Part shown: in pieces, positions 39,197 through 63,990 of the stretch
Layout: every line of letters begins with the position of its first letter
How positions within the stretch are numbered: the first letter of the stretch is position 1
Source: Closterium sp. NIES-65
Taxonomy: Eukaryota; Streptophyta; Zygnematophyceae; Desmidiales; Closteriaceae
DNA: 64,000 nucleotides
NCBI GenBank assembly: GCA_948144175.1
Contig: CANXME010002463.1
Location: forward strand, 946,001-1,010,000
Reading direction: 5' to 3'
The notes under the pieces: model-generated
Database searches by the model: none
Seen by the model: the letters and a program-made list of their open reading frames with translations, nothing else
Told to the model about the DNA's origin: nothing
Made by a program: the position numbers and the translations under genes

Positions 39197-39743
39197 TACA
39201 TTATGAACGCTCTAGGTTATTATAGCACTTGATGTGAATTTAGAACGATAGGGAATCTGGACTCTGGAATGAACTGGAGTGCCAGAGCAGGTTAACAAAA
39301 TGTCTTGTTTTTGTGTGCAGTCAAATTTAAATTATCAGCAGCACACTCCCAAAATCATTCTGAGCTGGAACGAAGTGTGTTTCAAAGACTCGGTATTTAA
39401 TGAGGCCGCGAAGCTTGCTAGGAATCAGTCAGCTGCACTAGTCGCTAGGATTGCGCCACGCAAGTGCGACCGCCGTCTCCTCTCGTCGTGACGAAGCCAA
39501 CCCTAATATGAAATCGACGGGTCCCTTGACCTCTCTCCTCATCCCGCTCTCCCATCCTCCCATCACCTCATCTCTCCCATCCTTGCTTTTCAACCTTTCG
39601 GGCACTAAGGTATCAGAATTTAGCGGGTAAGTGAAATATATGGCAAGTGGCTTTTGAGGCGCCTCAAAAGTCAGGATTTAGCGGGTAAGGGAAAGATATA
39701 ACACGCAGCAGCGACCAATCTTAAGTTCGTCCGCACAACCGCA
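39197..39743 (+). promoter_or_regulatory. Upstream region of the TTL gene
   Basis: No gene seen. 39520-39600 is a pyrimidine-rich patch (CTCTCCTCATCCC type), as often found in plant promoters and 5' leaders. A diverged direct repeat (TTTAGCGGGTAAG at 39619 and 39677) flanks a perfect palindrome at 39652-39669. Confidence 0.4.
39652..39669. repeat. Palindrome TTTTGAGGCGCCTCAAAA, copy 1
   Basis: Perfect 18-bp self-complementary site (20 bp with flanking C and G). The bases on both sides are a short direct duplication (CAGAATTTAGCGGGTAAG / CAGGATTTAGCGGGTAAG). Confidence 0.95.
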
Positions 39744-41719
39744 ATGGATGAATCGGATCGGTATGAGCAAGGGAGAGAAACGCGGCTCGAGTCGGGATTG
39801 CGATGGCTCAACGCGCTTCCCGAAGCCGAGGCGATCGAGGCGTTGATTCGCTGCTGCGGTTCCAAGAGATTTGCGTCTAGCCTCGCAGCGCGCCGCTCGT
39901 TTGGAAGCCTCGAAGATCTACAAAGGGCTGCGAGCGACGTGTGGTGGAATCAGGCAAGAAAGACCCCGCCTTCTTGTTTTGAGTCTGCTTTTGAGGCGCC
40001 TCAAAAACAGGATCTACAAAGGGCTGCTAGCGACATGTGGTGGAATCAGGCAAGCCCAGGCGGTTTTCATTCACACCCTGTATTGCACGCACTCTTTTAC
40101 ATAAGTGTGATATCTTTTCTCAGACGCCGGGTGTTGTAGGATTAGTGTTCTTATACGGGGGTAACGAGGGTCCTTGCTGCGTTTTGGTCGCTTGTAACGA
40201 GGGTTGAAAGAGCTTATGTTGTGGTTGCTATTTTTATTTCGCATAGTGCGATGCCGTGGCACCTAAACGCGATTTGCTTATCGTTTACTGCCTAAACACA
40301 TAGTAGTCGTTCATAGGTGAAGACATAGCTGTGTGTGGTGGCCTGATGGATTGTATCCTGTGCCAGGTGGACATCTCTGGTTGGCTGGAGGCCTTCGGTG
40401 CGCATCCCAGGATTGGTGACGTGGCATCGCTAAAGCGAAAGTTCTCCACACAACAGTGTGTGACGTGTTCATTCACGTTTGGAAGAATTTGTTGCTGTGT
40501 TGTGTTCACAAGCATGCACATGCATTCTCAGCATTCGTTCAATACATGCGCTCATGCACGCACATGTGCTCTTGCACATATGTATTCGTTTCTTACATGT
40601 ATTCTTAACGTGGATTACATGGTTACATGTATTCTTAACGTGGATTACATGGTTAACCTGAGTCAATGCACGTGTCTCTATTCTGCACCCAGATGGTCCC
40701 AAGGGGAGCAAGCAGCGGCCCTGCAATCATCCGATGACTCATTCTTCCAGGCAAGTTGATGGTACTCAAAAGCAAGTCCGCTTTCTGAGGCGCCTCAGAA
40801 CATTTTGAGGATGCTCGAAGCAAGCAGTAGCCCGGCAATCATTTGACGACTCATTCTTCCAGGCAATCACATGGTTGTTAAAATCAAGTTCGGTTTTTGA
40901 GGCGCCTCAGAATGATTTTGAGGCGCATCAAAGCAAGTAGCGGCGCTGCAATCATCCAATGACTCTTTTTTCCATTCAAGCACATCTCACTATAGGATTT
41001 TATATAGGACAGAAAACGTGTTAAGTGTGCTCCTTGTAATCGTAAGTTACACTGAGTGTGCTTCCAACATGACTCCCAATAAGTTAAGGCATCTGACAAC
41101 GCATCCTTCCAGGAAAGCACCACTCATTCCAGACCAGAGCGTGAAACGAAACGAAACAAAATCAAACGCCTTTCCACTTGCCTGCCTCCCTACCTGTCTA
41201 CCCGCCTGCCCACCCGCGTGCCGGCCTGCTTTTTGGCCTGCCTGCCTGCTTTTTGGCCTGCCTGATTTTTTGCCTGCCTTACTGCATGCCCAACACCCAT
41301 TCAGGAGATGGCGGAGTGCAATGGCCGCTACGAGCAGCGCTTTGGCCACATCTTCATCATCTGCGCCCAGGGCAAGCCTGCTTCGGAAATACTCTCCGCG
41401 CTTAAGGTATTTGTCAAACATGGAATTATGTCATTTACGTATGCCCAGGGCAAGCCTGCGCCGGAGTTACTCTCTCAACTCTCATGGTGATTGACACATA
41501 GTGTGTTTTTAATATGGAAATGCCTGATTGAAATCCCTTTCTTTTTCCCTCTGAATCAGACCTGCACAAACTCTCAAGTTCATTGGAAGGAAAGTAGCGC
41601 TTTTGCAACCAGGAAATGGCCTAGAGGTGCTTGGTGGGGGTTTGACCTCAAGGCTAAGAGTGGATTCCGCATTATGAGCAACATGCAGCCTGGAGGTCAA
41701 GCCCGCACCTTTATATATC

Positions 41720-41750
<31 letters not shown>

Positions 41751-43807
41751 ATATAGTTCAAGGGACTGCTCCTTCGTTTTCCACACGCACGAATCTCTAT
41801 ATTTCAAGGGGACAGCTTTCACTCTGTGCAGACGTATAATACGGCGAATTATGCCTGTGGAAAACGAAGGAGCAGTGCACAGCCTTCGTTTTGTGTAGAC
41901 GTATAACCATGTCAAGGGTCCAATTATTCCCCATTGTTTTAGGAGCGCTTGGGGAATCAAACAATTTACGAGGTGCAACTCGCAGCGAAGGAGCAAGAGA
42001 AGATCACCCAGCTGAGGCTGGCGAAGCAAGATGCTTGCAGGTGCTCATTTATCCCATGTGACTGCCCGTCTATTGCAGGAGCGCTTGGCAAATCAACCAA
42101 TCTATGAGGTGCAGCTAGCAGCCAAGGAGCAAGAGATGATCACCCAGCTGAGGCTGGAGAAGCTGCTGCTGGATGCTCCTACGGATGGCCTTGACGCTGC
42201 AGGTGTGTGTGCGTGTATGTGCGGATGGATGTGTTGTGCGTGCTGTGTGCATGTGTTTTGTCCTTCAAGTTGACGGGAAAAGCAGCTGAGGCTGGAGAGG
42301 CTGCTGCTGGCTGGGAAGTTGGCTTTTAGACATTCCCACAAACCGACCTGCTACTCTCCTCAGTCCTGCTCTAATTTCTCTCCAACCTTAGCACCTTCCA
42401 TTAAATTACTCTATACTCCAATTAGCCGCAATTAACCTTGTAATTTCCCTTCTTTTCCTCTCTTTATGTTCCTCTCCCGGCCGTGCATTTCTTTCCTGGT
42501 GGATATATCTTCCCTCAACAAGTCTCCTGCCCTGCAACCCACCGCCTGGCTAGACTCGCAGCACATATCGCACCATCAGGTGCGTGTGTGTGTGGTAGTG
42601 CGTTACGCTTCGCTACAGTCACACCAGCTACAGTCACACCCGCTACACACTCCCACTACAAGCATCAAACTCCCGTTCATCTCAACACGTGGACTCCTAA
42701 CCTTGAACCAACCTCAAGGCCCCTGCTGCTGATTCCCCTCCTTTATAATCCCCTCCTTTTCCTGCTTCCCTGTTGTCACTACCTCTTCCAGTCACAGCTG
42801 TACCCGCTACAGCCACACCCGCTACAAGCGCCAAGCATCCGTCCATATCCACTCACGTGCTGGATGTTGCGTTGGGCAGACCCGCTGCCGGCATCAAAAT
42901 GTTGCTGGAGCGACAGATAGAAGCAGGAGGGTCAGCAGAGAGGGAGGGGGGAGACAGGGGGGGCAGAGTGACGTGGCTCTGGGCAAACCCGCTGCCGGCA
43001 TCACAGTGGTGCAGGAGCGACCCCCTTGAGAGCCATCCTTTTGAGGCGCCTCAAAAGCCTTCTGAGGCGCCTCAAAAGTCGGCTCTGGGCAGACCCCCTG
43101 TCGGCATCACAGCGGTGCAGGGGCGACCCCCTTGAGCCATCCTTCACTCATCCCTGAGCCAGCCCTGAGTTATCTACTCTTCCTGATTCCCCCCTTTGTC
43201 CTGCTTCCCCATGCTTACCCCAGGTGCTCCAGCCACAGCTGCACCCGCTATAACCCCACCCGCCACAGTCACACCCGCTACAAGCACCAAGCCTCCATCC
43301 ATCTCCACACACGTGCTGGATGTGGCTCTGGGCAGACCCGCTGCTGGCATCAGAGTGCTGCTGGAGCGACAGATAGAAGCCCGAGGGGAGAGTGAGAGTG
43401 GTGATGTGGGGTTCGGATGGGAGCGAGTGGGCGGGGGAGTGACAAATGCTGATGGCAGGGCTGCTGGGCTGCTTGCCAGGGGTGGAGATGGGGGAGGAGT
43501 GGTGGGAAGCGGTGGGGTAGGAGGTGGAGGGATGGGAGGTGGGGGGGTGGGAGCTGGGATATACCGGCTGAGCTTTGCAACAGGGGAGTATCTTGGTCGG
43601 ATGCAAGGAGCAAGAGGGACAGGGGACTCACAAGCCGGCACAGGGAGAGGCAGTGGCAGTGGTGGTGGCAGTGGTGGTGGTAGTGGTGGTGGGTTCTTCC
43701 CGAGTGTGTCGATAGTGTTCCAAGTGCTGCCAGAGCAAGAGAGGGAGCACTTCCATGTGCCGCTGCTGCTCTCCCCCTTCTCCTACTCCACTTACCGAGG
43801 CAGCTGA
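39744..43807 (+). CDS. TTL: TTL / allantoin synthase (OHCU decarboxylase + HIU hydrolase)
   Basis: Bifunctional urate-breakdown enzyme converting hydroxyisourate via OHCU to S-allantoin, peroxisomal in plants. Exons that join in phase: 39744-39953, 40367-40455, 40693-40750, 41305-41406, 42079-42202, 43224-43807; 388 residues. The N-terminal OHCU decarboxylase domain shows CCGSKRFA, VWWNQ, WLEAFGAHPRIGD (catalytic His), SQGEQAA (Glu) and FGHIFIICAQGK, then EVQLAAKEQ. The C-terminal transthyretin-like domain shows THVLDVALGRPAAG, YRLSFATGEY, FFPSVSIVFQV, EHFHVPLLLSPFS and the terminal YRGS of HIU hydrolases, with two Gly-rich insertions. Introns 1 and 3 use CAG|GCAAG donors. The end of exon 2 could instead be 40440. 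Nearly every exon has partial copies nearby. The internal PTS2 of seed-plant TTL is not seen; residues 14-22 (RLESGLRWL) nearly fit one. Confidence 0.9.
39989..40049 (+). repeat. Palindrome plus copy of TTL exon 1 end and donor
   Basis: A perfect TTTTGAGGCGCCTCAAAA at 39989-40006 is followed by 40011-40049, a second copy of the last 39 bases of exon 1 (two mismatches) with the same CAG|GCAAG donor. It has no visible acceptor, so exon 1 at 39953 joins exon 2 directly. Confidence 0.9.
40596..40655 (+). repeat. Two-copy 30-bp direct repeat in TTL intron 2
   Basis: TTACATGTATTCTTAACGTG and the following ten bases occur twice in tandem, identical. Confidence 0.85.
40783..40980 (+). repeat. Two extra copies of TTL exon 3, each after palindromes
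   Basis: TTCTGAGGCGCCTCAGAA (40783-40800), a near-palindrome at 40895-40912 and a degenerate one at 40916-40933 separate diverged copies of exon 3 (40818-40862 and about 40931-40975). The first copy keeps CAG followed by GCAA; both have drifted in reading frame. Confidence 0.85.
41437..41490 (+). repeat. Copy of TTL exon 4 end
   Basis: CAGGGCAAGCCTG(C) and the following serine/leucine codons of exon 4 recur 75 bases downstream of the real donor, followed by ATGGTGA instead of a good donor. Confidence 0.8.
41717..41757. repeat. TA microsatellite in TTL intron 4
   Basis: Runs of TATATATATA then GTATGTATGTA. Confidence 0.9.
41766..41875. repeat. Inverted repeat, 20-bp arms
   Basis: CTGCTCCTTCGTTTTCCACA (41766-41785) is perfectly complementary to 41856-41875, giving a possible hairpin with a 70-base loop inside TTL intron 4. 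Confidence 0.85.
41943..42040 (+). repeat. Alternative copy of TTL exon 5
   Basis: It has its own acceptor (TTTTAG) and encodes ERLGNQTIYEVQLAAKEQEK and onward, highly similar to the real exon 5 (42079-42202). Its donor (CAG|GTGCTC at 42040) leaves phase 2 while exon 6 needs phase 1, so use of this copy would shift the frame. A third fragment (QLRLERLLL) lies near 42289-42322. Confidence 0.85.
42846..43134 (+). repeat. Three copies of the start of the TTL transthyretin exon
   Basis: 42846-42930, 42972-43026 and 43081-43134 each repeat the LGRPAAGI(K/T) segment that is used at 43320-43375. The first reads THVLDVALGRPAAG in an open frame. Between copies two and three sit palindromes at 43040-43057 (perfect) and 43061-43078 (one mismatch). 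Confidence 0.88.
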
Positions 43808-43867
43808 ACTATTTGCTTGCTATGTCTGGGAGATCAATTTCTTTCTTAAGTTTCAAACATCTTGTGC

Positions 43868-43924
43868 ATGAGCCACTCCTAGTACTCTCCCCGTTCTCTT
43901 ACTGCACCTACAGAGTTTGCTGAA
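43868..43924 (+). repeat. Copy of TTL last-exon end
   Basis: Downstream of the TTL stop (43805-43807) a diverged copy reads LLVLSPFSYCTYR and then VC and TGA, where the gene has LLLSPFSYSTYRGS. Confidence 0.8.
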
Positions 43925-44355
43925 CGGCTTTCTGTGCATACTTGTGCTACGCTAATGCTGTGTTACTGTATATACGTATATCTTGGGTTACAATTCACAC
44001 GATACTGCAGACGCACATCTTTGTTACGATTTTTATGTTTTTTTTGTTGTGCAGCCAATACAATTTCCTGACAGAATGGGCCACAATACTAGTAATATGC
44101 TGTGGGAACATTCACGAAACAATCACTTCCATACTTGCACTGTAATGTAAGGGTACATTCCGCTCTTGACACAAATGTCTCAATCGCGTCATACAACCTC
44201 TGTACCAATCTGCACCGCATTGCACCTAAGTGTCAAACATTTCCACCGCACTGCAACTCTTCGATTGAGACGCGAGGCCTTTGTGACACGCTTCAGAAAT
44301 ACACCCTAACACACTGTAAAAACCCTGTACAATTTGTGCTAAGCGAGATAATCCC
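43925..44355. other. Intergenic stretch between TTL and SDHAF2 3' ends
   Basis: AT-richer sequence with no supported gene. The two genes converge here, so both 3' untranslated regions probably lie in it. No clear polyadenylation signal was pinned down. Confidence 0.4.
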
Positions 44356-44670
44356 TTCACTGCAGGGTGCATGAACCCATCCCTGAGTTGGGTAATACAC
44401 AAGCGTCTACTGATTGCCAGCAGGGGGCGTGCCTGGTTGTCTCTGAATGTCCTCCCACCCCCGCACCCACGGCAAGCTAGGCGTGGCGTCCCCTCACACA
44501 CGAACAAAGTACACTCATCCATCACACAGAAAGCATAGCCTTTCGTTGCTCCTGTCAAGCCTCTACTGGTTGCCGGCAGGGGGCGTGCCCGGTTGCCTCT
44601 GCATGTCCTCCCATCCTCTCACCCACGGCAGGCCAGGAGTAATTTCCCCTCAACTGCTGGGTGCATGAAG
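44356..44670 (-). repeat. Downstream copies of the SDHAF2 terminal exon
   Basis: On the minus strand 44670-44560 and about 44480-44396 repeat the PWVRGWED(M/I)QRQPGTPP end including the stop, and 44374-44356 repeats the MHPAVK segment. They lie 3' of the terminal exon used in the model. Confidence 0.87.
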
Positions 44671-44700
44671 CAACCTCTGAGCTGCGTTTTGCACAAGCAA

Positions 44701-46996
44701 TTACTGGTTACCAGCAGGGGGTGTGCCCGGTTGCCTCTGCATGTCCTCCCACCCCCTCACCCACGGCAGGCCAGGCGCTGCCTTCACTGCTGGGTGCATA
44801 CGGTGCAGCCTTTCATCTACCTTGCTGCGGATTGAGAGGTACACCTGGGAGGGGGAAGGGGAGAGGGGGGATCAAAGGGCAGTGAGAAAACGTTTCCTCC
44901 CATTTCCTCTCACCCACAGCAGCCCAGGCTCGGCCTTCACTGCAGGGTGCATGCGATGCAGCCTCTCCTCTACCTTGCTGCGAATGGAGAGATACACCTG
45001 GGATGAGGGAGGGGTTGGGTGGTGTTGGGTGCTGGTTGGGTACTGCTGGGTGCATGCGATGCAGCCTCTGCTAAAAAAAAAACTCCAGGATAGTGAGACA
45101 TGCTGCAGGACTTGTTTTTTAGACACATGGAACATGCTTCAGAAACATACTCTCAGAACTTTCAGGCATGTGGTGCCAGCCCGCTTATGGGGCTTGCTTG
45201 CTCCTGCCCCGTGAAGCACTTGTGCGGATTTGAAAACATTCTACACACAGAAATTTGAACCAAGTGTTGCAGCAGGGTTTTTTTTTCGAGGTGCTCAAGA
45301 AAAGAGTCACAGGATTCTGATTTTTGGGGTCGACAAAAAAATCGCCCGAGATCGAGTCACAGGATTCTGAGCGGCATGCCGTGATGTGAAGCTTGCTGCT
45401 GCCCCGTGGACCACTTGAGTGAAAGTTCCCAAGAATACAAACGGATTTCTGAACCACGTGCTGCAGGGCTTGTATTCGAAGAACTCACAGGATTCTGAAG
45501 CACGTGCTCTGGCGCCTGCTCCTGTCCCGTGAACCACTTGAAGAGATCCGGACTCTCCTGTGTGTGCACGGGCGAGGGAGGACGGGGGGACAGGGGAATG
45601 GAAGAGGGAGTGAAAGGGGAAGTTTCAGAGGTATGCATGCAGAGGGTGACTATACCACTTGAAAAGATCCGAACCCTCGTGGTTGTGCACGTAGGGGAGG
45701 ATGGGGAGGGAGGGGAGTGGTGGGGGAGGGAGGTAAGCAGCAGAGCAGAGCCTGAGGTATAGGAACACAGCGGCGGGTGCACAGGCGTATCCGGTACGCC
45801 AGACAGGTGCGGTGATAGAGGAATGATCAAACAGGTATGGTCAAACGGGTACGGTCAAACAGGTACGGTAAGAAAAAGGTACGGTCAAAACATGTACGGT
45901 CAAACAGGTACGGTCAAAACAGGTACAATCAAAACAGGTACAGTCAAACAGGTACAGTCAAACAGGTACCTCGACGCACCCTCACCTCGACGCACCCTCA
46001 CCTCGACGCACCCTCACCTCCAAACGCCCACCACCCAAGAGCTCTCACCTCGTTTACAAGCCAAGAGATCTCTCTCACCTCGTCCAAGAGGCGTGCGAGA
46101 GCAGACAAGTGAGGCGGGTCCAGGGACGGCAGGTGCTGCTCCACCCACTTGCCCAGCAGCAGATGCAGCTCCAGGAAGCCCCTCTGTCTGCTCCTCAATT
46201 AACCTCGTCCAACAGCAGAGAGAGGTCAGACTCACCTCGTCCATGAGGCGTGCAAGTGCTGTCAAGTGAGGCGGGTCCAGAGAGGGCAGGTGCTGCTCCA
46301 CCCACTTGCCCAGCAGCAGATCCAGTTCTAAGAACCCCCTCTGCCTGCTGCGGTAGCGCAGCCTGCGAGGAGTGGGAGAGGCATGAGGGGCGGAAAAGGC
46401 TCATGCTGACCTGACTGGTACAAAAGCCCACCCACCATCCAGCATCCTGAAATGGGAAGCGCAGAAAGGGGGAGAGAAGCAGAGAGAGAAAGAGAGCAAT
46501 CACAAAGCGAGCCCTCTTGCTGCAACCATGGATGGCAGGTTGCGTGCAAGTATAGGAGGAGGTTTTTGAGAATTCTCAGAGAGCAGAAGAGAGAGAAAGA
46601 GAGCAATCACAAAGAATAGCCCTCTTGCTATCGTGCAACCATTGATGGCAGGTTGCGTGCAAGTATAGGAGGATTACGGCTAAAAATACGCCTCATAAAT
46701 TCCTTAGAAGAAGCCATTGCGTGCCTTTTTCGCCTGACTGTATTTTGCCCGCACAAGCCATCCAAGCACATTACATCCTTGCCTGTTCAGATTCTGTCTG
46801 ACTGCCTCTGCTGCTGCTGTTGATCCTGCAGCCGCTCCCGCTGCTGACACTGCCGTTCCTGCTCCTGCTGCTGGTGCCGAACCTGGTGTTGCTGCCGAGC
46901 CTGCTGCCGAACCAGCTGCAGCTGCCAAGCCTGCCCCTTGGCTCTGGCGTTCCTCAGCCATGCATGGGAACACGTGGACAGATGCATGGTAGGAAG
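44701..46996 (-). CDS. SDHAF2: SDHAF2, succinate dehydrogenase assembly factor 2 (5' end unresolved)
   Basis: Mitochondrial matrix factor that promotes covalent FAD attachment to the succinate dehydrogenase flavoprotein (complex II). Minus-strand exons that join in phase: 46996-46783, 46362-46236, 45557-45489, 44844-44701. Landmarks: RLRYRSRQRGFLELDLLLG, the family hallmark; WVEQHLPSLDPP; ESPDLFKWFTGQEQAPE; VYLSIRSKVDERL; PWVRGWEDMQ near the C-terminus, ending GNQ and TAA (44703-44701). The first listed exon is Ala-rich and ends VRQNLN with a CAG|GCAAG donor. The mitochondrial presequence exon is not settled; 47348-47296 (MQHLRSRGASFADTLAAR) is presequence-like but its phase does not fit. Several exons have tandem partial copies, including the stop-bearing last exon. 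Confidence 0.87.
44890..45071 (-). repeat. Upstream copies of the SDHAF2 terminal exon
   Basis: 44997-44890 has a good acceptor and an open copy (VYLSIRSKVEERLHRMHPAV onward) that diverges after WVRG, losing the normal C-terminus. 45071-45041 holds only the RLHRMHPAV segment. Confidence 0.87.
45185..45690 (-). repeat. Copies of the SDHAF2 DLFKWFTGQEQ exon
   Basis: Around the exon used (45557-45489) lie diverged copies at about 45690-45660 (GSDLFKW), 45425-45385 (KWSTGQQQAS) and 45216-45185 (CFTGQEQAS). The HVLQNP|GTGAGT end is also repeated near 45460, 45360 and 45320. Confidence 0.82.
45830..46020. repeat. Minisatellites in an SDHAF2 intron
   Basis: About nine imperfect 14-15-bp units built on CAGGTACGGTCAAA (45830-45966) are followed by about three 16-bp CTCGACGCACCCTCAC units (45968-46015). 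On the minus strand the latter reads GAG|GTGAGG, like the donor of the neighbouring exon. Confidence 0.85.
46043..46205 (-). repeat. Copies of the SDHAF2 RQRGFLELD exon
   Basis: 46193-46079 repeats most of the exon used at 46362-46236 (RQRGFLELHLLLGKWVEQHL and onward) with its own donor GAG|GTGAGA. Smaller remnants of the exon end (LDE, VNE) precede and follow it. Confidence 0.87.
46485..46678. repeat. Two-copy direct repeat of about 85 bp in an SDHAF2 intron
   Basis: AAAGAGAGCAATCACAAAG through GCGTGCAAGTATAGGAGGA occurs at about 46489-46563 and 46594-46673 with small differences. Confidence 0.85.
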
Positions 46997-49158
46997 CTGC
47001 GGGGAAAGTGCGGGAGAGGAGAGGAGAGAGGCTGGGCAAACGGAAGGGAGGGAGCGAGGAAGGGAGGGTGAGGGCGGGGAAGAAAGACGAGAACTTAACG
47101 AGTGATGCAGAACAGATCCTTCTTTGAGAATAAAAAAATACAGCAATTAACACGAATCTGTAGTCCCATTGAATGAAAAAATACATTGAATTAACACGAA
47201 AAAGGATGAGGATATTATTTCGTGGATCTTCCACTGGTTTACTCGGATGGGAGCCCTCCGGTTTACTCCGAATAGGCGCATGTTCCAAGGTTTACCGAGC
47301 AGCGAGAGTATCGGCGAAAGAGGCGCCGCGTGATCGTAGGTGCTGCATGGTGACTGGCAGATCCCCGGAATCCGGAAACCGGAACTCCTGGAATTTGAAA
47401 AGCGGGACGCGGAACGCCGAGCGCGGAAAGGCGGAACGCGGGAGGAGGAGCGCGGAGAATCTGTGACAAATGCAGGCGACGGATTGGAATGCGAAACTGG
47501 AATCAACGCGAGGAGGCGAATCGTTAAAGGTGGTAACTGGGAGATGAAGTAGTGGGAGGCTGTGGATACAGGGGTCTGAGGATTGAATAATCTCCTCCAA
47601 ATCACTCTTTCACAAGAGGAACGTACTGCCGTGATGCGATACTGTGCTGCGCTGCGCGTAGAGTCGTTTCTTGCTTGAAAATAGGCCACGTCACCGTCTG
47701 ACACAACCGTGACGTAAGTGGAGTGGAAGCACCGAGGAAGAGGAGCTACCAATCCGCGCTACAATGCGTTTGGAACTGAGGCTATTATGAGGATAGAAAA
47801 CAGTGCCACTATAGCCACTTAAACCTAAAAAAACATAATTTCTAAATGCCTAGTCTGACTGAAAAAACCTATCATCGTTCAATAGCGAACGAAGTTTTTC
47901 ACGCACCCCGTGGCCAAAACTGATATGGAGGCGGCGTCTGAAAAACGTTTTTCTTGTTGCTCCACCTGCTGTGGTGATACATTGTCGATCAGTCAACTGG
48001 CCTGAGGATCGTTATTTTGAGAGGTTAGAGTAGGTTTCGTAAGTTGTAGATTCAACAAGCGGGATTACAGTGCGATGTAACCATTTTGCACTTGACTGTT
48101 TTTTTCGAACGGACGATAAACGAACGGTAATCGAACCGTTTCATATCGCCTGTGTTTTCCAAGAGAGTTCCATCCGGTTAAGTTTTGTGTGCGACGTCGC
48201 ACGCTTAAATCGCACGAGCGGTTCGTTAACGAACCGAAACCGTCAAAATGGTTACGCGCCCTAAGCATCATTGATCAACCTGAGACGATGTTCACGTTCT
48301 CCGAGCAGCTCCGTACAGAATAGAGATGACGTCAACCGTAGATTTCTTCAGGAACGTAGGCTGACCGTCGAATCAGAAGCGGAACGCTGACATTCCTGTT
48401 TCTTCACCGTCCGCATCGCTCCCAGCTTTTACATTCCTCCCGTAGCAACGTTACCGCGATTTGCATTCACATACTCTTTAATTGCGACCTCCTTACTCAG
48501 ACTTCAGACTTGCTCAGAGCTGCTCGGTGCGGTTGAAGGTTTCCCCCCGCACGCTGCTGCAGAAACTCCGTATCAACTTCCGTCGTAACCCAGTTGTTCC
48601 TCCCATGAGTACTCTGATTGGCCAGAACCGTGTCACGAGTAGTCGTCAGTTGTAACAGGGAGCCATCGAGAAAAGCACGGAATGGCCGAATTTTGAGGCG
48701 ACTCAAAGAGCAGCAGCTATCGAAAAAAACAGCAGGCGATGGCTGGGAAGGAGGGGGATAAGGAGAGGGGGCGAGAAAAGGGTAGGGAGAGGGGTAGCAA
48801 GGAAAGAGGGAAAGAGGATAAGGAGAAGGGAAGGGGGAGAGCGAAAGAGGAGAGGGAGAAGGGAAGGGGGAGAGAGAAAGAGAAGAGCAAGGGGATGCAC
48901 AGGAGAGCAGGGAGTCCCGGAAGTGGCGTGAGTAGCGGAAACGGTCTAGCTGCTTCACCGTCGGCATCTGAAGGCGAAAGTTCCAGGCACCAGCACGGCC
49001 ATCAGGACCATCGGCATTCTGGACACCACTTAGGGCATCCGGGAAATCAGGAGTATCAAGGGAATCAGGGGAATCACAACGAGCATAGGGTGCAGCAGGA
49101 GCGACTCGTGGGTTACAATCAGGGAAATCAGGGGAACTGGGAACATCAGCCTCTGCTT

Positions 49159-49200
<42 letters not shown>

Positions 49201-49283
49201 CAGCAGCAGCCAGTGACGTCAGCGTCCGCTTCCCACGGAGGGGGATGGCAGGCTCTGATGACGTCAGCGGCATCCGCGTCCAT
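46997..49283. promoter_or_regulatory. Region between divergent SDHAF2 and GT92 genes
   Basis: No firm gene. Possible regulatory sites with ACGT cores: palindrome GTGCGACGTCGCAC (48189-48202) and TGACGTCA at 48327, 49214 and 49259, all bZIP-type. CGGTTCGTTAACGAACCG (48219-48236) is a perfect 18-bp palindrome. A degenerate TTTTGAGGCGACTCAAAG lies at 48691-48708. 48760-48900 is purine-rich and 49159-49210 is a CAG microsatellite; long open frames here on both strands are low-complexity. The SDHAF2 presequence exon probably lies within 47.0-47.8 kb. Confidence 0.35.
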
Positions 49284-49480
49284 CATGCAGCAATGTCACG
49301 CTCTCATTCAACGCCGGGAGGTGCGGTGCTTCTCTGACTTAGCCGCAAGTGGTGTGTGAGGGGAGCGATTTTTGAGTCTACTCAAAACACGACTCATTCA
49401 ACGCTGGGAGGTGCAGTGCTTCTCTGACTTAGCCGCCTGTGTGTGAGGGGAGGAGTGGCGTTTCTCTGCCTTAGCCGCCC
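49284..49480 (+). repeat. Three copies of an exon-like segment around a near-palindrome
   Basis: CATTCAACGC(C/T)GGGAGGTGC through CTGACTTAGCCGC occurs at 49299-49347 and 49393-49437; a third, partial copy lies near 49455-49480. TTTTGAGTCTACTCAAAA (49370-49387, one mismatch) separates the first two. In one frame it reads ALIQRREVRCFSDLAA and could be an early exon of the GT92 gene, but its phase could not be matched to 49805. Confidence 0.7.
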
Positions 49481-49804
49481 CGCGTCCGAGGGAAGGTATT
49501 TGGTTTTGTCTTTTATCCCCGCGTGTGCTGTGCTTCGATGCAGATTACCACCCTGTGAGAAATTTGTTCGATTTTTCAAAATATCTTGCAAGGCAAGCGA
49601 TATGCTTTTTCCTTATTCCCCCCATCCATCCACCCACCCCCCACCCCAACCCCCTTTCCCAGCACCCCTCTTTCGTTCTTTTCAATTCTCCTCCAATTTC
49701 ATTCTCCCCAATCCCATCCTCCTTCATTCAAATTCTCCCCACTCCGTTGCTCCTCATTCTATTCCTCCTCATTCTATTCCTCCTCGGTCCACACCCCCCC
49801 ACAG

Positions 49805-55800: not shown

Positions 55801-58800
55801 CCATCCGTCCTGTCTTTGTTCCGCACCACCTCACCAAGTGATGATAGTGAACGATTGTGTGTATCGGTCGCTTAATGCCACCCCGTCCATCATTTCTATC
55901 GTCTACACCCGTCCCCATTCCTTCTTGTCTCCTCTCCGCCCCACCAGGTGATGATAGTGAACGATTGTGTGTATCGCTTCCGCCGCCTTTCCAAGTGGCT
56001 CATGTACCTTGACTTTGACGAGTTCATCTTTATGGATGGGCAGGTGAGCACGCAAGGCCGCACTCACTCCCTTGGATGATTCTCAAAAGTGATTCCAACG
56101 CAGTTCGCCTTCATCAACGACCAGATGGTCAGGTCCGCTATGTCGAAATCTCTATTGAGGATTCTCGAAAGTGATTTTCCCACCGGCCAGGTGGCTGTTA
56201 GAAGACCCGCACGAGGGATCTCCGATTGATCCTAGAGAAGGGTTATAGGCACGCTTGCCTGGGAGGTTATGGACGGATTTACCCGCTACTTTTAAAGCCC
56301 TTTTATCCCAGTGATTAGTGGTTGAGATTCTGATATGACATCAGAGCGAAGGCTTCAGGTTCGAATGTCCATGTGCGCACATGCTGGCGTCCATGTGTTG
56401 CTGCCGTTGTGCCGTGTCCTAGGGCATCCCAGTGAAGGGAGGTGTCAGAAGATGTGCATTGGGGACCCTCAAGTTAATCCTAGGAAAGAGTTACAGACAC
56501 GCTTGTCTGGAGGGTTATAGGCGCACTCACCCACTACTTAAAAACCATTTTATCCCAGCAGTTAGTGATTGGGATTCTGACAATGGCAAGGTCCACATGC
56601 AAGCATCCCGACCTCCCCATCCGCACACTCCTCATCTCGCTTTCTCTCTCCGCATGAGGGTTTGCTTGCACACTTGGGTGTCCTTGCTCCTGCTTCACAC
56701 TTGGGTGTCCTTGCTCCTGCTTCACACTTGGGTGTCCTTGCTCCTGCTTCACACTTGGGTGTCCTTGCTCCTGCTTCACACTTGGGTGTCCTTGCTCCTG
56801 CTTCACACTTGGGTGTCCTTGCTCCTGCTTCACACTTGGGTGTCCTTGCTCCTGCTTCACACTTGGGTGTCCTTGCTCCTGCTTCACACTTGGGTGTCCT
56901 TGCTCCTGCTTCACACTTGGGTGTCCTTGCTCCTGCTTCACACTTGGGTGTCCTTGCTCCTGCTTCACACTTGGGTGTCCTTGCTCCTGCTTCACACTTG
57001 GGTGTCCTTGCTCCTGCTTCACACTTGGGTGTCCTTGCTCCTGCTTCACACTTGGGTGTCCTTGCTCCTGCTTCACACTTGGGTGTCCTTGCTCCTGCTT
57101 CACACTTGGGTGTCCTTGCTCCTGCTTCACACTTGGGTGTCCTTGCTCCTGCTTCACACTTGGGTGTCCTTGCTCCTGCTTCACACTTGGGTGTCCTTGC
57201 TCTTGCTTCACACTTGGGTGTCCTTGCTCCTGCTTCACACTTGGGTGTCCTTGCTCCTGCTTCACACTTGGGTGTCCTTGCTCCTGCTTCACACTTGGGT
57301 GTCCTTGCTCCTGCTTCACACTTGGGTGTCCTTGCTCCTGCTTCACACTTGGGTGTCCTTGCTCCTGCTTCACACTTGGGTGTCCTTGCTCCTGCTTCAC
57401 ACTTGGGTGTCCTTGCTCCTGCTTCACACTTGGGTGTCCTTGCTCCTGCTTCACACTTGGGTGTCCTTGCTCCTGCTTCACACTTGGGTGTCCTTGCTCC
57501 TGCTTCACACTTGGGTGTCCTTGCTCCTGCTTCACACTTGGGTTGGGTGTCCTTGCTCCTGCTTCACACTTGGGTGTCCTTGCTCCTGCTTCACACTTGG
57601 GTGTCCTTGCTCCTGCTTCACACTTGGGTGTCCTTGCTCCTGCTTCACACTTGGGTGTCCTTGCTCCTGCTTCACACTTGGGTGTCCTTGCTCCTGCTTC
57701 ACACTTGGGTGTCCTTGCTCCTGCTTCACACTTGGGTGTCCTTGCTCCTGCTTCACACTTGGGTGTCCTTGCTCCTGCTTCACACTTGGGTGTCCTTGCT
57801 CCTGCTTCACACTTGGGTGTCCTTGCTCCTGCTTCACACTTGGGTGTCCTTGCTCCTGCTTCACACTTGGGTGTCCTTGCTCCTGCTTCACACTTGGGTG
57901 TCCTTGCTCCTGCTTCACACTTGGGTGTCCTTGCTCCTGCTTCACACTTGGGTGTCCTTGCTCCTGCTTCACACTTGGGTGTCCTTGCTCCTTGCTTCAC
58001 CTCACCCTACTGAGCCACTACTCCCGAATCCCGCTGTCTCTTTACCCACAGGAGCGAGTACCCAACCCAATGAGCGTGCACGACTTTCTCGCCCCTCACG
58101 AGGGACTGCCCTATGTGAGCCACGGGTGCCTGTGGTGGGACCACGAGCGCTGCCTTCCTGCCCAAGGCGACAACGGTACGCACACTTGCTTGGTTGTGCA
58201 GTTTTGGCAGTGCAGCTTGGTAGGGCCTGCTTCTGATCGCCCCTCATGAGGGAGGGTCTGACTGCCCTGTGTGAGCCACGGCTGCCTCTGGTGGGACCAC
58301 GAGCGCTGCCTTCCTGCCCAGGGCGATAACGGTGCGAGGTGACTTGATTGCTCCGCGGAGAAGCAGGCAGTACTGACTATGTGGTTGGCCCTGTTCCTGA
58401 CTGCCCTATTTGAGCCATGGGCGCCTGTGGTGGGAGGGACCACAGGCGCTGCCTCCCCTCTCAAGGTGACAACGAAATGGTACGCACTCTTGCTTGTCTG
58501 TGCAGTCTAGTGCTGGCATGGACTTGCTTGGTTGTGCGGGCCGCACATGCGTGGCGTTGCCTGGTCCTGACTGCCCTATACGAGCCATGGGCGCTTGTGG
58601 TGGGACCACAGGCGTTGCCTGCCCTGCCAAGGGGCCAATCGTGTGTGGTGTCTTGGTTGGTAGCACAGAGGCACGCCAAGGGGCCAATCGTGTGTGGTGT
58701 CTTGGTTGGTAGCACAGAGGCACGCCAAGGGGCCAATCGTGTGTGGTGTCTTGGTTGGTAGCACAGAGGCACGCCAAGGGGCCAATCGTGTGTGGTGTCT

Positions 58801-61800
58801 TGGTTGGTAGCACAGAGGCACGCCAAGGGGCCAATCGTGTGTGGTGTCTTGGTTGGTAGCACAGAGGCACGCCAAGGGGCCAATCGTGTGTGGTGTCTTG
58901 GTTGGTAGCACAGAGGCACGCCAAGGGGCCAATCGTGTGTGGTGTCTTGGTTGGTAGCACAGAGGCACGCCAAGGGGCCAATCGTGTGTGGTGTCTTGGT
59001 TGGTAGCACAGAGGCACGCCAAGGGGCCAATCGTGTGTGGTGTCATGGTTGGTAGCACAGAGGCACGCCAAGGGGCCAATCGTGTGTGGTGTCTTGGTTG
59101 GTAGCACAGAGGCACGCCAAGGGGCCAATCGTGTGTGGTGTCTTGGTTGGTAGCACAGAGGCACGCCAAGGGGCCAATCGTGTGTGGTGTCTTGGTTGGT
59201 AGCACAGAGGCACGCCAAGGGGCCAATCGTGTGTGGTGTCTTGGTTGGTAGCACAGAGGCACGCCAAGGGGCCAATCGTGTGTGGTGTCTTGGTTGGTAG
59301 CACAGAGGCACGCCAAGGGGCCAATCGTGTGTGGTGTCTTGGTTGGTAGCACAGAGGCACGCCAAGGGGCCAATCGTGTGTGGTGTCTTGGTTGGTAGCA
59401 CAGAGGCACGCCAAGGGGCCAATCGTGTGTGGTGTCTTGGTTGGTAGCACAGAGGCACGCCAAGGGGCCAATCGTGTGTGGTGTCTTGGTTGGTAGCACA
59501 GAGGCACGCCAAGGGGCCAATCGTGTGTGGTGTCTTGGTTGGTAGCACAGAGGCACGCCAAGGGGCCAATCGTGTGTGGTGTCTTGGTTGGTAGCACAGA
59601 GGCACGCCAAGGGGCCAATCGTGTGTGGTGTCTTGGTTGGTAGCACAGAGGCACGCCAAGGGGCCAATCGTGTGTGGTGTCTTGGTTGGTAGCACAGAGG
59701 CACGCCAAGGGGCCAATCGTGTGTGGTGTCTTGGTTGGTAGCACAGAGGCACGCCAAGGGGCCAATCGTGTGTGGTGTCTTGGTTGGTAGCTCAGAGGCA
59801 CGCCAAGGGGCCAATCGTGTGTGGTGTCTTGGTTGGTAGCACAGAGGCACGCCAAGGGGCCAATCGTGTGTGGTGTCTTGGTTGGTAGCACAGAGGCACG
59901 CCAAGGGGCCAATCGTGTGTGGTGTCTTGGTTGGTAGCACAGAGGCACGCCAAGGGGCCAATCGTGTGTGGTGTCTTGGTTGGTAGCACAGAGGCACGCC
60001 AAGGGGCCAATCGTGTGTGGTGTCTTGGTTGGTAGCACAGAGGCACGCCAAGGGGCCAATCGTGTGTGGTGTCTTGGTTGGTAGCACAGAGGCACGCCAA
60101 GGGGCCAATCGTGTGTGGTGTCTTGGTTGGTAGCACAGAGGCACGCCAAGGGGCCAATCGTGTGTGGTGTCTTGGTTGGTAGCACAGAGGCACGCCAAGG
60201 GGCCAATCGTGTGTGGTGTCTTGGTTGGTAGCACAGAGGCACGCCAAGGGGCCAATCGTGTGTGGTGTCTTGGTTGGTAGCACAGAGGCACGCCAAGGGG
60301 CCAATCGTGTGTGGTGTCTTGGTTGGTAGCACAGAGGCACGCCAAGGGGCCAATCGTGTGTGGTGTCTTGGTTGGTAGCACAGAGGCACGCCAAGGGGCC
60401 AATCGTGTGTGGTGTCTTGGTTGGTAGCACAGAGGCACGCCAAGGGGCCAATCGTGTGTGGTGTCTTGGTTGGTAGCACAGAGGCACGCCAAGGGGCCAA
60501 TCGTGTGTGGTGTCTTGGTTGGTAGCACAGAGGCACGCCAAGGGGCCAATCGTGTGTGGTGTCTTGGTTGGTAGCACAGAGGCACGCCAAGGGGCCAATC
60601 GTGTGTGGTGTCTTGGTTGGTAGCACAGAGGCACGCCAAGGGGCCAATCGTGTGTGGTGTCTTGGTTGGTAGCACAGAGGCACGCCAAGGGGCCAATCGT
60701 GTGTGGTGTCTTGGTTGGTAGCACAGAGGCACGCCAAGGGGCCAATCGTGTGTGGTGTCTTGGTTGGTAGCTCAGAGGCACGCCAAGGGGCCAATCGTGT
60801 GTGGTGTCTTGGTTGGTAGCACAGAGGCACGCCAAGGGGCCAATCGTGTGTGGTGTCTTGGTTGGTAGCACAGAGGCACGCCAAGGGGCCAATCGTGTGT
60901 GGTGTCTTGGTTGGTAGCACAGAGGCACGCCAAGGGGCCAATCGTGTGTGGTGTCTTGGTTGGTAGCACAGAGGCACGCCAAGGGGCCAATCGTGTGTGG
61001 TGTCTTGGTTGGTAGCACAGAGGCACGCCAAGGGGCCAATCGTGTGTGGTGTCTTGGTTGGTAGCACAGAGGCACGCCAAGGGGCCAATCGTGTGTGGTG
61101 TCTTGGTTGGTAGCACAGAGGCACGCCAAGGGGCCGATCGTGTGTGGTGTCTTGGTTGGTAGCACAGAGGCACGCCAAGGGGCCAATCGTGTGTGGTGTC
61201 TTGGTTGGTAGCACAGAGGCACGCCAAGGGGCCAATCGTGTGTGGTGTCTTGGTTGGTAGCACAGAGGCACGCCAAGGGGCCAATCGTGTGTGGTGTCTT
61301 GGTTGGTAGCACAGAGGCACGCCAAGGGGCCAATCGTGTGTGGTGTCTTGGTTGGTAGCACAGAGGCACGCCAAGGGGCCAATCGTGTGTGGTGTCTTGG
61401 TTGGTAGCACAGAGGCACGCCAAGGGGCCAATCGTGTGTGGTGTCTTGGTTGGTAGCACAGAGGCACGCCAAGGGGCCAATCGTGTGTGGTGTCTTGGTT
61501 GGTAGCACAGAGGCACGCCAAGGGGCCAATCGTGTGTGGTGTCTTGGTTGGTAGCACAGAGGCACGCCAAGGGGCCAATCGTGTGTGGTGTCTTGGTTGG
61601 TAGCACAGAGGCACGCCAAGGGGCCAATCGTGTGTGGTGTCTTGGTTGGTAGCACAGAGGCACGCCAAGGGGCCAATCGTGTGTGGTGTCTTGGTTGGTA
61701 GCACAGAGGCACGCCAAGGGGCCAATCGTGTGTGGTGTCTTGGTTGGTAGCACAGAGGCACGCCAAGGGGCCAATCGTGTGTGGTGTCTTGGTTGGTAGC

Positions 61801-63090
61801 ACAGAGGCACGCCAAGGGGCCAATCGTGTGTGGTGTCTTGGTTGGTAGCACAGAGGCACGCCAAGGGGCCAATCGTGTGTGGTGTCTTGGTTGGTAGCAC
61901 AGAGGCACGCCAAGGGGCCAATCGTGTGTGGTGTCTTGGTTGGTAGCACAGAGGCACGCCGCACGCTGTATGTCTGTCTTTCCTCTCCTCGCCCCTTTTG
62001 AGTCGACTCAAAAGTCGCACGCTGTATGTCCGTCTTTCCTCTCCTCGCCCCTTCTCTCCCTCCTCTCTCCATCCATCCTCTCTTCATCCCCTCTTCCCTG
62101 CTGTGCCACTCCCCGCTGTGCCACTCCCTGCTGTGCCTGTTAACCCGTCATCTGCTCCCCTCCTCTTTTCATCTCCTCTCTTCCATTCCATTCACAGACC
62201 CCAGGTGGCCATTGGAGCGAATGTTGTGGCACTGGCCGTTCATCTACTGCCAGGCCAAGGACAACACCACCGACCCTAAACTGTGCCTCAACCACTGGGG
62301 CCACCGCAAGCTGTTTGTCGATCCCAGGAAGGTGTGAATCAACTAGGATGTTTGCTGGTCCCAGAGTGGTGTGGATTGGGTTTTAAGAACCGTGTGTGCC
62401 TGTCATGGGTCCCAACCTATGCCTCAACCACTGGGGCCACCGCAAGCTGTTTGTTGATCCCAGGAAGGTGTGTGTGCTTTGTGTGCTGTTGCATTCTGAA
62501 ACGTTCGGAGGCGTGCTAAGTATTTTCTTGGCCTTCTGTCCTCTCCCTGTCCTCCAAGGCTTTTCATTCGCCCTCACCCTCCTCTCAGCCTTTTATCCTC
62601 CTTTCTCCGTGTCATAGGTGCGAGGCGAGTGGTGGAGAACCACGTGGTGGAGAACCCCAGCGGGGGAGGCACCTTGTGTTGTTTCGTCAATCTCGACTCC
62701 TCTCAACCTCCTGTCACCGCTCTCTAACCCTTTTAGCCCCCTCCGTTCCCCTCTCCCTCAGGTGCGAGTGGTGGAGAATCACGTGGTTGCAGACCCCAGC
62801 GGGGGAGGCCACCCTGTGTTGTCTCTTCAAGCTCAACCTCCTCCCAACATTTATGACCCATTTAACCCCCTCGCCCCCCATTCTCCCACAGGTGTGAGCG
62901 GTGGAGAACCATATCGTTGCAGACCCCATTGAGGGAGGCACGTTCTGTCCTATCTCGTCATGCGCTCTCACTCTCCCCCTCGCCCCCCCTTCTCCCTCAG
63001 GTACGAGTGGTGGAGAACCATGTCGTTGCAGACCCAAGCGGGGGAGGGAATGACCTGCCCACAGACGCACTCAGGCACCACCACTTCCGC
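49805..63090 (+). CDS. GT92-family glycosyltransferase, plant galactan-synthase-like (incomplete)
   Basis: Eleven exons join in phase: 49805-49855, 50589-50687, 51315-51740, 52524-53179, 53861-54017, 54590-54703, 55171-55248, 55948-56043, 58052-58175, 62198-62331, 63001-63090; more lie beyond the window, and the start codon is not identified. The first two exons form a signal anchor (ILLAVCLLLVFVFWFDIISI), so a type II Golgi protein is likely. A poly-Ala/Pro/Ser stem follows, then a globular start (FAQFSGYRVSPTEFAAVGLA) and an Arg/Glu/Gly-rich insert (about 52570-53090). The catalytic part has HNITHCSPP, MGVDHYVLYDVGGVD, VMIVNDCVYRFR and LDFDEFIF, the DxD-like metal/nucleotide site of GT92. 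Order and motifs recall beta-1,4-galactan synthases (GALS), but the acceptor cannot be read from sequence. Introns hold large satellites. Confidence 0.85.
49856..50345 (+). repeat. 33-bp minisatellite grown from a GT92 splice donor
   Basis: About 14 units of GTGAGAGGGAGGGCGTGTGT plus 13 bases follow exon 49805-49855. The first unit is the true donor region (ACTG|GTGAGGGGGCGTGCGTG), so the array repeats the exon/intron junction. One unit near 50062 is shortened. Open frames in both directions are by-products. Confidence 0.9.
50748..51027 (+). repeat. Three extra copies of GT92 exon DEEQALIRASSSIPPQFAQS
   Basis: 50751-50797 (partial), 50842-50911 and 50954-51027 repeat the end of exon 50589-50687 with donor (A)TCA|GTAAGC; the last two also carry a CAG acceptor and are phase 0 at both ends. 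TTTTGAGGTGCCTCAAAA lies at 50816-50833 and 50931-50948 between them, and a degenerate TTGAGTCGACTTAAAA before the first. Confidence 0.9.
51885..52033 (+). repeat. Copy of GT92 exon FRRVGLVSFAQFSGYR
   Basis: Repeats the last ~150 bases of exon 51315-51740, including GAAGGCAGGAAG|GTGAGG, with a frameshift near 52005. Confidence 0.88.
52325..52450 (+). repeat. Copy of GT92 exon start VGKC(T/A)WEPG, with palindromes
   Basis: 52327-52355 copies the start of the exon used at 52524, including the AAG acceptor. It is followed by a perfect TTTTGAGACGTCTCAAAA (52358-52375) and a truncated palindrome TTTTGAGGCGCCTAAAA near 52431. Confidence 0.87.
53249..53382 (+). repeat. Two copies of GT92 exon end LILLCTLKR and donor
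   Basis: 53249-53276 and 53355-53382 repeat GGCTCATTCTGCTCTGCAYG and CTCAAGAG|GTGAGTAAG; the functional copy ends at 53179. Confidence 0.9.
53424..53507. repeat. Palindromes with ACGT and TCGA centres
   Basis: CTTTGAGACGTCTCAAAA at 53424-53441 (one mismatch) and perfect TTTTGAGTCGACTCAAAA at 53490-53507. The flanks repeat ACTTTGATCTACTTCAG-like sequence three times. Confidence 0.92.
53703..53790 (+). repeat. Upstream copy of GT92 exon EAYVADGGWLHMRIDGED
   Basis: It has a good acceptor in the right phase but loses the frame after GEDV. The complete exon is 53861-54017. A third, partial copy (HNITHCSPPIHHQ and donor) is at 54127-54171. Confidence 0.88.
54750..54950 (+). repeat. Two open-frame copies of GT92 exon MDLHIRMGVDHYVLYD
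   Basis: 54750-54836 and 54869-54950 encode variants HIRMGVGHYVPYHVGSMD and HIRMGVGHYVLYDVSGVD, both ending CAG|GTGAG in phase 0 and free of stops. The first also has a TAG acceptor in phase 0, so it could act as a cassette or exclusive exon. Confidence 0.88.
55064..55106 (+). repeat. Copy of GT92 exon PFLDGGIVEVTDF
   Basis: It has a CTGCAG acceptor and PFLDGGILEVTDF, then diverges with no donor. The used copy is 55171-55248. Confidence 0.87.
55495..55802. repeat. 24-bp minisatellite
   Basis: About 12-13 near-identical units of CATCCCTCAACCTCACCGGC plus four bases in the intron before exon 55948. The unit is pyrimidine-rich like the 3' splice site region, and a copy of the exon start (TGATGATAGTGAACGATTGT) sits just after the array at about 55839. 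Confidence 0.93.
56044..56670. other. GT92 intron, unique part
   Basis: No exon recognised. 56230-56330 and 56465-56585 are diverged copies of one another (AGGTTATGG / GGGTTATAGG ... ACTTTTAAAGCCCTTTTATC / ACTTAAAAACCATTTTATCC ... CAGTGATTAGTG). Confidence 0.5.
56671..57990. repeat. 27-bp satellite, about 49 units
   Basis: Unit CACTTGGGTGTCCTTGCTCC plus TGCTTCA is almost perfectly homogeneous. One C-to-T variant lies near 57202 and a 5-base insertion at about 57541 shifts the register. As 27 is divisible by three, all frames give long artificial ORFs; the array is intronic. Confidence 0.95.
58176..58640 (+). repeat. Three degenerating copies of GT92 exon YVSHGCLWWDHERCLPAQGDN
   Basis: 58239-58337, 58390-58475 and 58556-58640 repeat the end of exon 58052-58175 with its donor. 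The last copy has drifted to CTGCCAAGGGGCCAATCG|TGTGTG and runs directly into the 49-bp satellite. Confidence 0.88.
58626..61960. repeat. 49-bp satellite, 68 units, seeded by an exon/donor copy
   Basis: Units of GCCAAGGGGCCAATCGTGTG plus 29 bases repeat for 3335 bp. Few variants are seen: CATGG for CTTGG near 59044, AGCTCAG for AGCACAG near 59790 and again near 60770 (980 bp = 20 units apart), and GCCGATCG near 61135. The leftmost unit is continuous with a copy of the GT92 exon end. Minus-strand ORFs up to 1014 codons are artefacts. Confidence 0.96.
61961..62060. repeat. Palindrome TTTTGAGTCGACTCAAAA between direct repeats
   Basis: The perfect palindrome at 61996-62013 is flanked on each side by GCACGCTGTATGTC(T/C)GTCTT and CCTCTCCTCGCCCC, a 35-bp duplication with one difference. 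Confidence 0.95.
62402..62470 (+). repeat. Copy of GT92 exon end CLNHWGHRKLFVDPRK and donor
   Basis: Near-identical to the end of exon 62198-62331, with donor AAG|GTGTGT. Confidence 0.9.
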
Positions 63091-63310
63091 GTGAGTGCCT
63101 TTCTGGCCGGGCGGGTTTGTTTTCGAATAGCAACCTATTTTGTCAGCAGCTCCCTGCCCCACAGACGCACTCAGGCATCACCACTTCCGTGTGAGTGTGT
63201 CTTTCGAGGCGCCTCAAAAGGTGCGAGTGGTGGAGAATCATATCGTTGCATACCCCAGAGGGGGAGGGAAAGACCTTCCTACAGAAGCACTCAGACATCA
63301 CCACTTTTTT
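62619..63310 (+). repeat. Five copies of GT92 exon VVENHVVADPSGGG
   Basis: Starts near 62622, 62764, 62893, 63001 and 63222. Only 63001-63090 is complete with an open frame, acceptor and donor; that at 63222-63311 is also full length but has HTPE(G) changes and a frame reading IVAYP. A palindrome-like CTTTCGAGGCGCCTCAAAAG lies at 63201-63220 before the last copy. Confidence 0.88.
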
Positions 63311-63990
63311 GTGAGTGCCTTTTGCATTCCATCACCACATCTGCGTGAGTGCTTTTGCATGTAAGTGCCATCACCACTTCTGCGTGCGTGCTTTTGCATG
63401 TAAGTGCCATCACCACTTCTGCGTGAGTGCTTTTGCATGTAAGTGCCATCACCACTTCCGTTTGAGTGCCTTTTGCATGCCATCACCACATCTGCGTGAG
63501 TGCTTTTGCATGTAAGTGCCATCACCACTTCCGCGTGAGTGCCTTTTGCATGCCATCACCACATCTGCGTGAGTGCTTTTGCATGTAAGTGCCATCACCA
63601 CTTCCGCGTGAGTGCCTTTTGCATGCCATCACCACTTCTGCGTGAGTGCTTTTTGCAAGTAAGTGCCATCACCACTTCCGCGTGAGTGCCTTATGCATTT
63701 TCGTGGCACCACTACTTCCGTGTGAGTGCCTTTTGCATTTAAACCCCGCAGGCCAAGCTATTCAAGCTTAGGAAGGCTGGTTGGGAGTGAGGACAATATT
63801 TGGACGCGAGCCAATAAGAGTGTCGAAAATGTTGGCCTAGGTCTCAGAGATCGGGAATGAGCACATTCAACCAACATTAGGAAGGATGAACCAAATTTGG
63901 CCTTCTTGACCCACGGGTTTGAAGTGGCACCACCACTTCCGTGTGAGTGCCCTTTGCATGGCATCACCACTTCTGCGCGAGTGCAGGTTG
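63310..63990 (+). repeat. Minisatellite of exon end CACCACTTCCGC|GTGAGTGCC
   Basis: About 14 units of 34-39 bp, each carrying ATCACCACTTCYGCGTGAGT and TTTTGCATG, continue from the end of the last GT92 exon copies. Interrupted by unrelated sequence at about 63745-63920, within which no gene is recognised. Confidence 0.9.

Follow-up and report, generated by a model that had tools for sequence, protein, structure and literature searches.

Diverged partial exon copies and a short dispersed palindrome in the nuclear genome of Closterium sp. NIES-65

Why should so many exons of three unrelated genes lie beside diverged tandem copies of parts of themselves? The question is raised by a stretch of 64,000 nucleotides from Closterium sp. 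NIES-65 (contig CANXME010002463.1, positions 946,001 to 1,010,000; hereafter the window), the last 24 kb of which hold the three host genes. The initial annotation, made from the letters alone, proposed a genome-wide process that copies exon/intron junctions, and we have followed this up in the assembly (874 Mb, precisely 874.08 Mb, in 2,400 contigs). The genome report for this strain gives an 876 Mb assembly, with over half of shared gene groups duplicated and a mean intron length of 485 bp (PMC10407611).

Three genes with partial exon copies

The first of these genes, annotated as TTL, is one that we take to be the plant-type allantoin synthase, a transthyretin-like protein. Its six exons join into a 388-residue protein without internal stop, which carries OHCU decarboxylase and HIUase/transthyretin domains, and it is the one gene of the three for which exon joining is complete. 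Tubulin-tyrosine ligase, another possible meaning of the name, was rejected, the search with that Pfam family having matched other contigs. The other two genes are SDHAF2, whose pieces lie on the minus strand at about 44.4-47 kb, and a GT92 gene whose exons run from about 49 kb to near the window end. Direct repeats and domain-supported joined exons bear out the initial observation that all three contain diverged tandem partial exon copies; among the direct-repeat families listed (20 of 43), five of the six TTL exons have such copies and exon 2 has none. What had been missed is an 18-bp palindrome, TTTTGAG-N4-CTCAAAA, that stands at many of the copy junctions. The features are as follows, percentages being identities between copies.

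39744..43807, plus strand: allantoin synthase (TTL) gene; PF09349 and PF00576 lie in the single open frame of the joined exons
39744-39953, 40367-40455, 40693-40750, 41305-41406, 42079-42202, 43224-43807: TTL exons
39613..39699, plus strand: 29-bp duplication (90%) upstream of the start codon, surrounding palindrome 39652-39669
39915..40054, plus strand: 3' end of TTL exon 1 with donor, 44 bp, 95% (39915-39958 / 40011-40054), palindrome 39989-40006 between
40707..40980, plus strand: TTL exon 3 end in three copies, 86% (40707-40755 / 40819-40867 / 40932-40980), with palindromes 40783-40800, 40803-40820, 40895-40912 and 40916-40933 between them
41365-41396 / 41443-41474: internal piece of TTL exon 4, copied, 88%
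41941-42027 / 42077-42163: start of TTL exon 5, copied, 89%
42802-42931 / 43258-43387: TTL exon 6, copied, 88%
42975..43144, plus strand: TTL exon 6 piece, 66 bp, 89% (42975 / 43081), palindromes 43039-43056 and 43060-43077 inside
44353..47200 (limits approximate), minus strand: SDHAF2 (Sdh5) gene region with repeated exon pieces; PF03937 on joined pieces
46074-46192 / 46231-46349: SDHAF2 copies, 89%
46472..46673, plus strand: duplication of about 90 bp in which no exon was recognised, palindrome 46564-46581 in the middle
48895..63990 (limits approximate, start by eye), plus strand: GT92 gene with many partial exon copies; PF01697 on joined exons
49303/49393, 50616/50841/50956, 51582/51870, 53133/53230/53335: GT92 copies
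53660/53819, 54621/54754/54868, 55043/55146, 63054/63153: further GT92 copies
49303..49452, plus strand: end of first GT92 exon, 63 bp, 89%, flanking palindrome 49370-49387
50616..51044, plus strand: tandem copies of a GT92 exon, together with palindromes 50816-50833 and 50931-50948
52358..52447, plus strand: two palindromes (52358-52375, 52430-52447), flanked only remotely by a 36-bp duplication, whose copies lie 76 bp ahead of the second palindrome and 67 bp beyond it
53424..53507, plus strand: two palindromes (53424-53441, 53490-53507) with short, weak duplications of 20 and 14 bp
61960..62051, plus strand: 36-bp duplication adjoining palindrome 61996-62013, in an intron beside a satellite
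63202..63219, plus strand: one-mismatch palindrome amid copies of the final GT92 exons, without an anchored duplication

The surroundings of these genes deserve a few observations in their own right. Two of the five TTL introns (at positions 39954 and 40751) apparently start with GC instead of GT, and additional TTL-like genes, whole or fragmentary, with 66-93% identity to that of the window, lie at 865-918 kb of contig C2165, 530-565 kb of C1668 and 69-70 kb of C453. The GT92 region includes two tandem arrays with 98-99% matches, made of a 27-bp unit repeated about 49 times (56663-58000) and a 49-bp unit repeated about 68 times (58626-61960). Positions 1-39600 contain Copia-type LTR domains (RVT_2, rve, gag_pre-integrs) in both orientations, plus long inverted pairs; six of the seven long open reading frames tested in the first 39 kb have Copia-type rve (four) or RVT_2 (three) domains, and the seventh has Pol_BBD.

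With up to three mismatches, the palindrome has 27 matches in the window, where 1.78 (SD 1.37) were expected, and none lies before position 39,309. Flanking copies were sought at 21 of the 27. At ten, no more than 30 bp separate the end of the left copy from the palindrome, and no more than 5 bp the palindrome from the start of the right copy (at 53490, among the ten, on the strength of only 14 bp); at five (40783, 40916, 43039, 50816 and 53424) this placement is one-sided, often because a second palindrome intervenes; and at six (48691, 50730, 52358, 52430, 52844 and 63202) it is absent. An unanchored test reached a score of at least 60 at 12 of the 21, compared with 16% of 1,000 random positions.

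Abundance and anatomy of the palindrome

Genome-wide, there are 30,327 exact copies of the core, whereas a control pattern made by reading the core backwards (same letters, likewise a palindrome) has 4; with one mismatch the counts are 55,077 and 102. When the centre was replaced by spacers of 5 to 34 bases, the sum was 3,103 (control, 172). Among 50 sites listed, several of which are array members and hence not independent, the centre N4 is TCGA (22), ACGT (12), GCGC (10) or AATT (2) in 46, and in the other four it is one substitution away from one of these tetramers. The arms outside the core vary by family and are sometimes found on one side only: GGTGAC/GTCACC is found at many of the TCGA sites, one ACGT site has GAAAGAAGGAGTG and other ACGT sites have parts of it, while four of eight distinct AATT-centred sites have palindromic arms of 8-11 bp, each different.

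GTGACTTTTGAG was counted 4,414 times on one strand and 4,569 times on the other (control, 18 and 23). The TCGA family is strongly biased to heads-inward joints: the heads-inward joint GTGACTTTTGAGTCGA occurs 6,380 times, 4,614 of which continue into CTCAAAA, head-to-tail joints number 63, some in runs at exact 17-bp steps, and the tail-to-tail (outward) joint GTCACCTCGAGGTGAC occurs nowhere in the genome. The absence of this last joint led us to reject ligation of small monomers in random orientation, for the TCGA family, in which alone it was tested. Repeat addition was likewise rejected for the ACGT family, whose head-to-tail joint was absent with the one arm tested.

Two more general possibilities were set aside. 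General palindrome abundance fails on the make-up of the perfect palindromes of at least 16 bp in the loci read, 30 of which are of the core type and 18 of other types (eight are TA runs and three share another centre in locus L022). As for a viral origin, each stretch of viral contig among the matches listed (about 80 of at least 120) has a single core site, which is the chance level. The three palindromes in L022, which measure 16 to 46 bp and have the centre GAACATGTTC, lie close together at L022:1070-1237, about 11 kb past the window.

Duplications around the palindrome

The company of palindrome and duplication is not peculiar to the window. Outside it, we examined 18 of the 50 listed sites, taken in listing order but leaving aside those on C6 and the first pair on C9, together with one neighbouring exact core, in 13 stretches (L160-L172). 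Of these 19 exact cores, 16 are flanked on either side by direct duplicates whose anchors are no more than 20 bp away, with lengths of 16-92 bp (array members included). The corresponding figure was 6 of 155 for control positions within those loci and 22 of 240 for positions drawn at random from L009-L028. The three failures are a gapped duplication (L169), the last member of an array (L171) and a core for which no clear cause was seen (L161). Without anchoring, the tests discriminate less sharply, owing to the many local duplications present here: a score of at least 30 was obtained at 17 of the 19 cores and at 226 of 520 control positions.

Taken from the side of the duplications, the picture is more mixed. 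Sequence not chosen for the palindrome (the window, itself chosen for its exon copies, L009-L014 and L021-L028) yielded 54 close tandem pairs, and the core, with at most two mismatches, lies inside 12 of them, so that other or decayed duplications contribute too. In a wider set that includes core-chosen sites, the core is found in 30 of 94 pairs versus 3.2 by chance. The identity of duplicate pairs extends from 68%, the lower limit of the search, to near identity, and a loss of the core with pair age was not significant (present in 3 of 8 pairs of at least 90% identity and in 9 of 46 below, p 0.36).

A homeologous counterpart exists for many of the stretches, with an identity of mostly 96-99% in the aligned portions and far lower in some parts, and it offers a view of the sites with and without palindrome. 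The comparison covers co-linear stretches and leaves out 44-48 kb of the window, which aligns poorly with C1668, along with the cores in it. Two positions are empty in the window relative to C1668:

42191..42260, plus strand: 70-bp stretch (exon 5 end with donor), single in the window
51139..51143, plus strand: GCACA, single in the window

C1668 has three copies of the first stretch, separated by two palindromes, and each insert has the sequence GAC-core-GTC. At the second position, which lay between the aligned segments of the comparison, it has a perfect 38-bp palindrome plus GATA, flanked by the 5-bp duplication GCACA. The array at 50616..51044 is built of palindrome-bearing 115-bp units, and C1668 has one unit fewer. 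In 53,061 aligned columns, the core is present in 2 of 35 differences of at least 12 bp, many of the others being changes of repeat number, and an extra copy of exon 4 private to C1668 is without the core. In co-linear homeologous stretches, both copies carry 15 cores (at most one mismatch) along with the flanks. Another six are listed as private, although for two of the six (48691 and 49370) the other copy shows a decayed core in the corresponding position. With 15 cores and flanks common to both copies and six listed as private, an assembly artefact, which the initial annotation had named as a possible refutation, is unlikely.

It thus seems that palindrome and duplication arise jointly, in sequence of many kinds, and that the exon-end copies are their recognisable subset.

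Origin of the copies

The exon copying is probably, in part, a by-product of insertion-plus-duplication events untied to exons, in which staggered breaks are repaired via a conserved palindromic patch. Such an event would proceed as follows: (i) a double-strand break would form through widely staggered nicks, tens of bases apart, (ii) fill-in on both sides would leave the stretch X between the nicks on both ends, (iii) the ends would be joined via a short palindromic patch with the core TTTTGAG-N4-CTCAAAA, giving X-palindrome-X, and (iv) some of these structures would later grow into arrays, by slippage or unequal exchange. Where a duplication spans an exon end, the extra copy would land in the intron, be tolerated and survive as a partial exon copy. 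An origin in staggered breaks is our inference, and so is the view that a single event yields both patch and duplication; duplications of up to about 100 bp at the break, which staggered-break repair would leave, are seen at 16 of the 19 sites and at the empty sites. The 42 of 54 close pairs without the core speak against the patch, local duplications being mostly patch-free or having lost it, and these palindrome-free copies may date from further back or stem from plain repair.

As to the source of the patch, we would favour a version in which one and the same templated extension, short and terminating in TTTTGAG-N4, is put on each filled-in 3' end, after which annealing of the self-complementary N4 would unite the two ends. 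A close alternative would be the capture of ready-made palindromic DNA with trimmed ends. A self-complementary 4-base centre, a constant inner part and shortened outer parts fit both versions, while the differing arms at four of the eight AATT sites are not explained by one template. An enzyme or template gene for the patch was not found in these analyses, which included no family-directed search. It is possible, although we would put it forward only tentatively, that a reverse transcriptase/polymerase complex with short RNA templates extends both ends of a staggered break by one short sequence with a self-complementary tetramer at its tip, and that the ends would then close into the palindrome.

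Several known systems share features with this proposal. Patch-mediated insertions are known from rice, and to our knowledge the patches inserted during staggered-break repair are of arbitrary origin rather than one conserved sequence, in contrast to the single core that we find at 30,327 places. Fill-in at the ends of staggered breaks is documented to produce small tandem duplications (PMC8355091), and those described there resemble ours in being short direct duplications, under 100 bp, from break repair, but here one conserved palindrome stands between the copies, in very many places. Very short palindromes dispersed in non-coding DNA are described for yeast mitochondrial GC clusters and Volvox organelle repeats (PMC4478555, PMC2670323), and the Volvox nuclear genome has some copies that the authors consider inert. 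The Closterium palindrome is abundant in nuclear DNA, its window copies lying in or between genes with spliceosomal introns, and its flanking duplications are long and variable, whereas those of the yeast clusters are given as AG or ACT (PMC4478555, PMC2670323). Intron gain in Daphnia, attributed to staggered breaks, also involves direct repeats at exon ends, but these are 4-12 bp long and the portion of the report consulted describes no shared palindrome (PMC4202315). A published account of palindrome-tagged duplication was not found in our literature search, the scope of which lay outside most preprints and subscription journals.

The alternative that fares best, which we nevertheless find doubtful, is that the palindrome is an ultra-short mobile element made of inverted repeats only, with a transposase or reverse transcriptase supplied in trans and a long, variable target-site duplication. 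High copy number, a conserved core, arms that form sequence families and one private insertion with a 5-bp duplication would all suit such an element. The duplications vary from 5 to 92 bp across sites, so there is no target-site duplication of fixed length as in TIR DNA transposons and MITEs. As for internal sequence between the inverted repeats, which such elements would have, spacers of 5-34 bases (the range searched) are together ten times rarer than those of 4, with the whole core present in all three of the spacer-search sites whose letters were shown. Variable duplications are a trait of LINE/SINE-type insertions that is found here too, but the 3' tail or simple repeat and the 5' truncation of such insertions are not apparent, with no poly-A-like tail seen by eye in the listed sites.

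It is improbable that the tandem copies come from ordinary slippage, unequal exchange or plain staggered-break repair, with the palindrome as a bystander or as a fragile site that attracts breaks. A region full of tandem arrays, and 42 of 54 close pairs without the core in sequence not chosen for it, are what this explanation has to offer; the position of the palindrome between the copies is against it, and so is the single-copy version of the two private insertions, which has no palindrome although a pre-existing fragile site would be present there. Dedicated copying of exon/intron junctions, as first proposed, is very improbable, since many exons of the three genes do have copies that include the 5' splice site but palindrome-linked duplications also lie away from recognised exons in the window (39613-39699, before the start codon; 46472-46673; intron 61960-62051) and on other contigs, at sites taken regardless of genes.

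What stands of the original proposal is local partial copying on a genome-wide scale, which is supported by the spread of the palindrome through the genome, the two private insertions and the wide range of pair identities; a role of junctions as such finds no support. A simple reading is that duplications within coding exons are selected against and those in introns go unnoticed, whereas those at exon ends are tolerated and easily spotted.

The odd look of three genes thereby leads to a countable genome-wide mutation process, every event of which is self-tagged by the palindrome. A comparison of strains would measure break-repair duplication, together with what it contributes to new introns, alternative exons and the growth of the genome. 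If the reading with a reverse transcriptase/polymerase complex were true, it would amount to a previously undescribed genome parasite or repair system, which keeps writing X-palindrome-X and, at exon ends, supplies spare exon pieces and splice sites.
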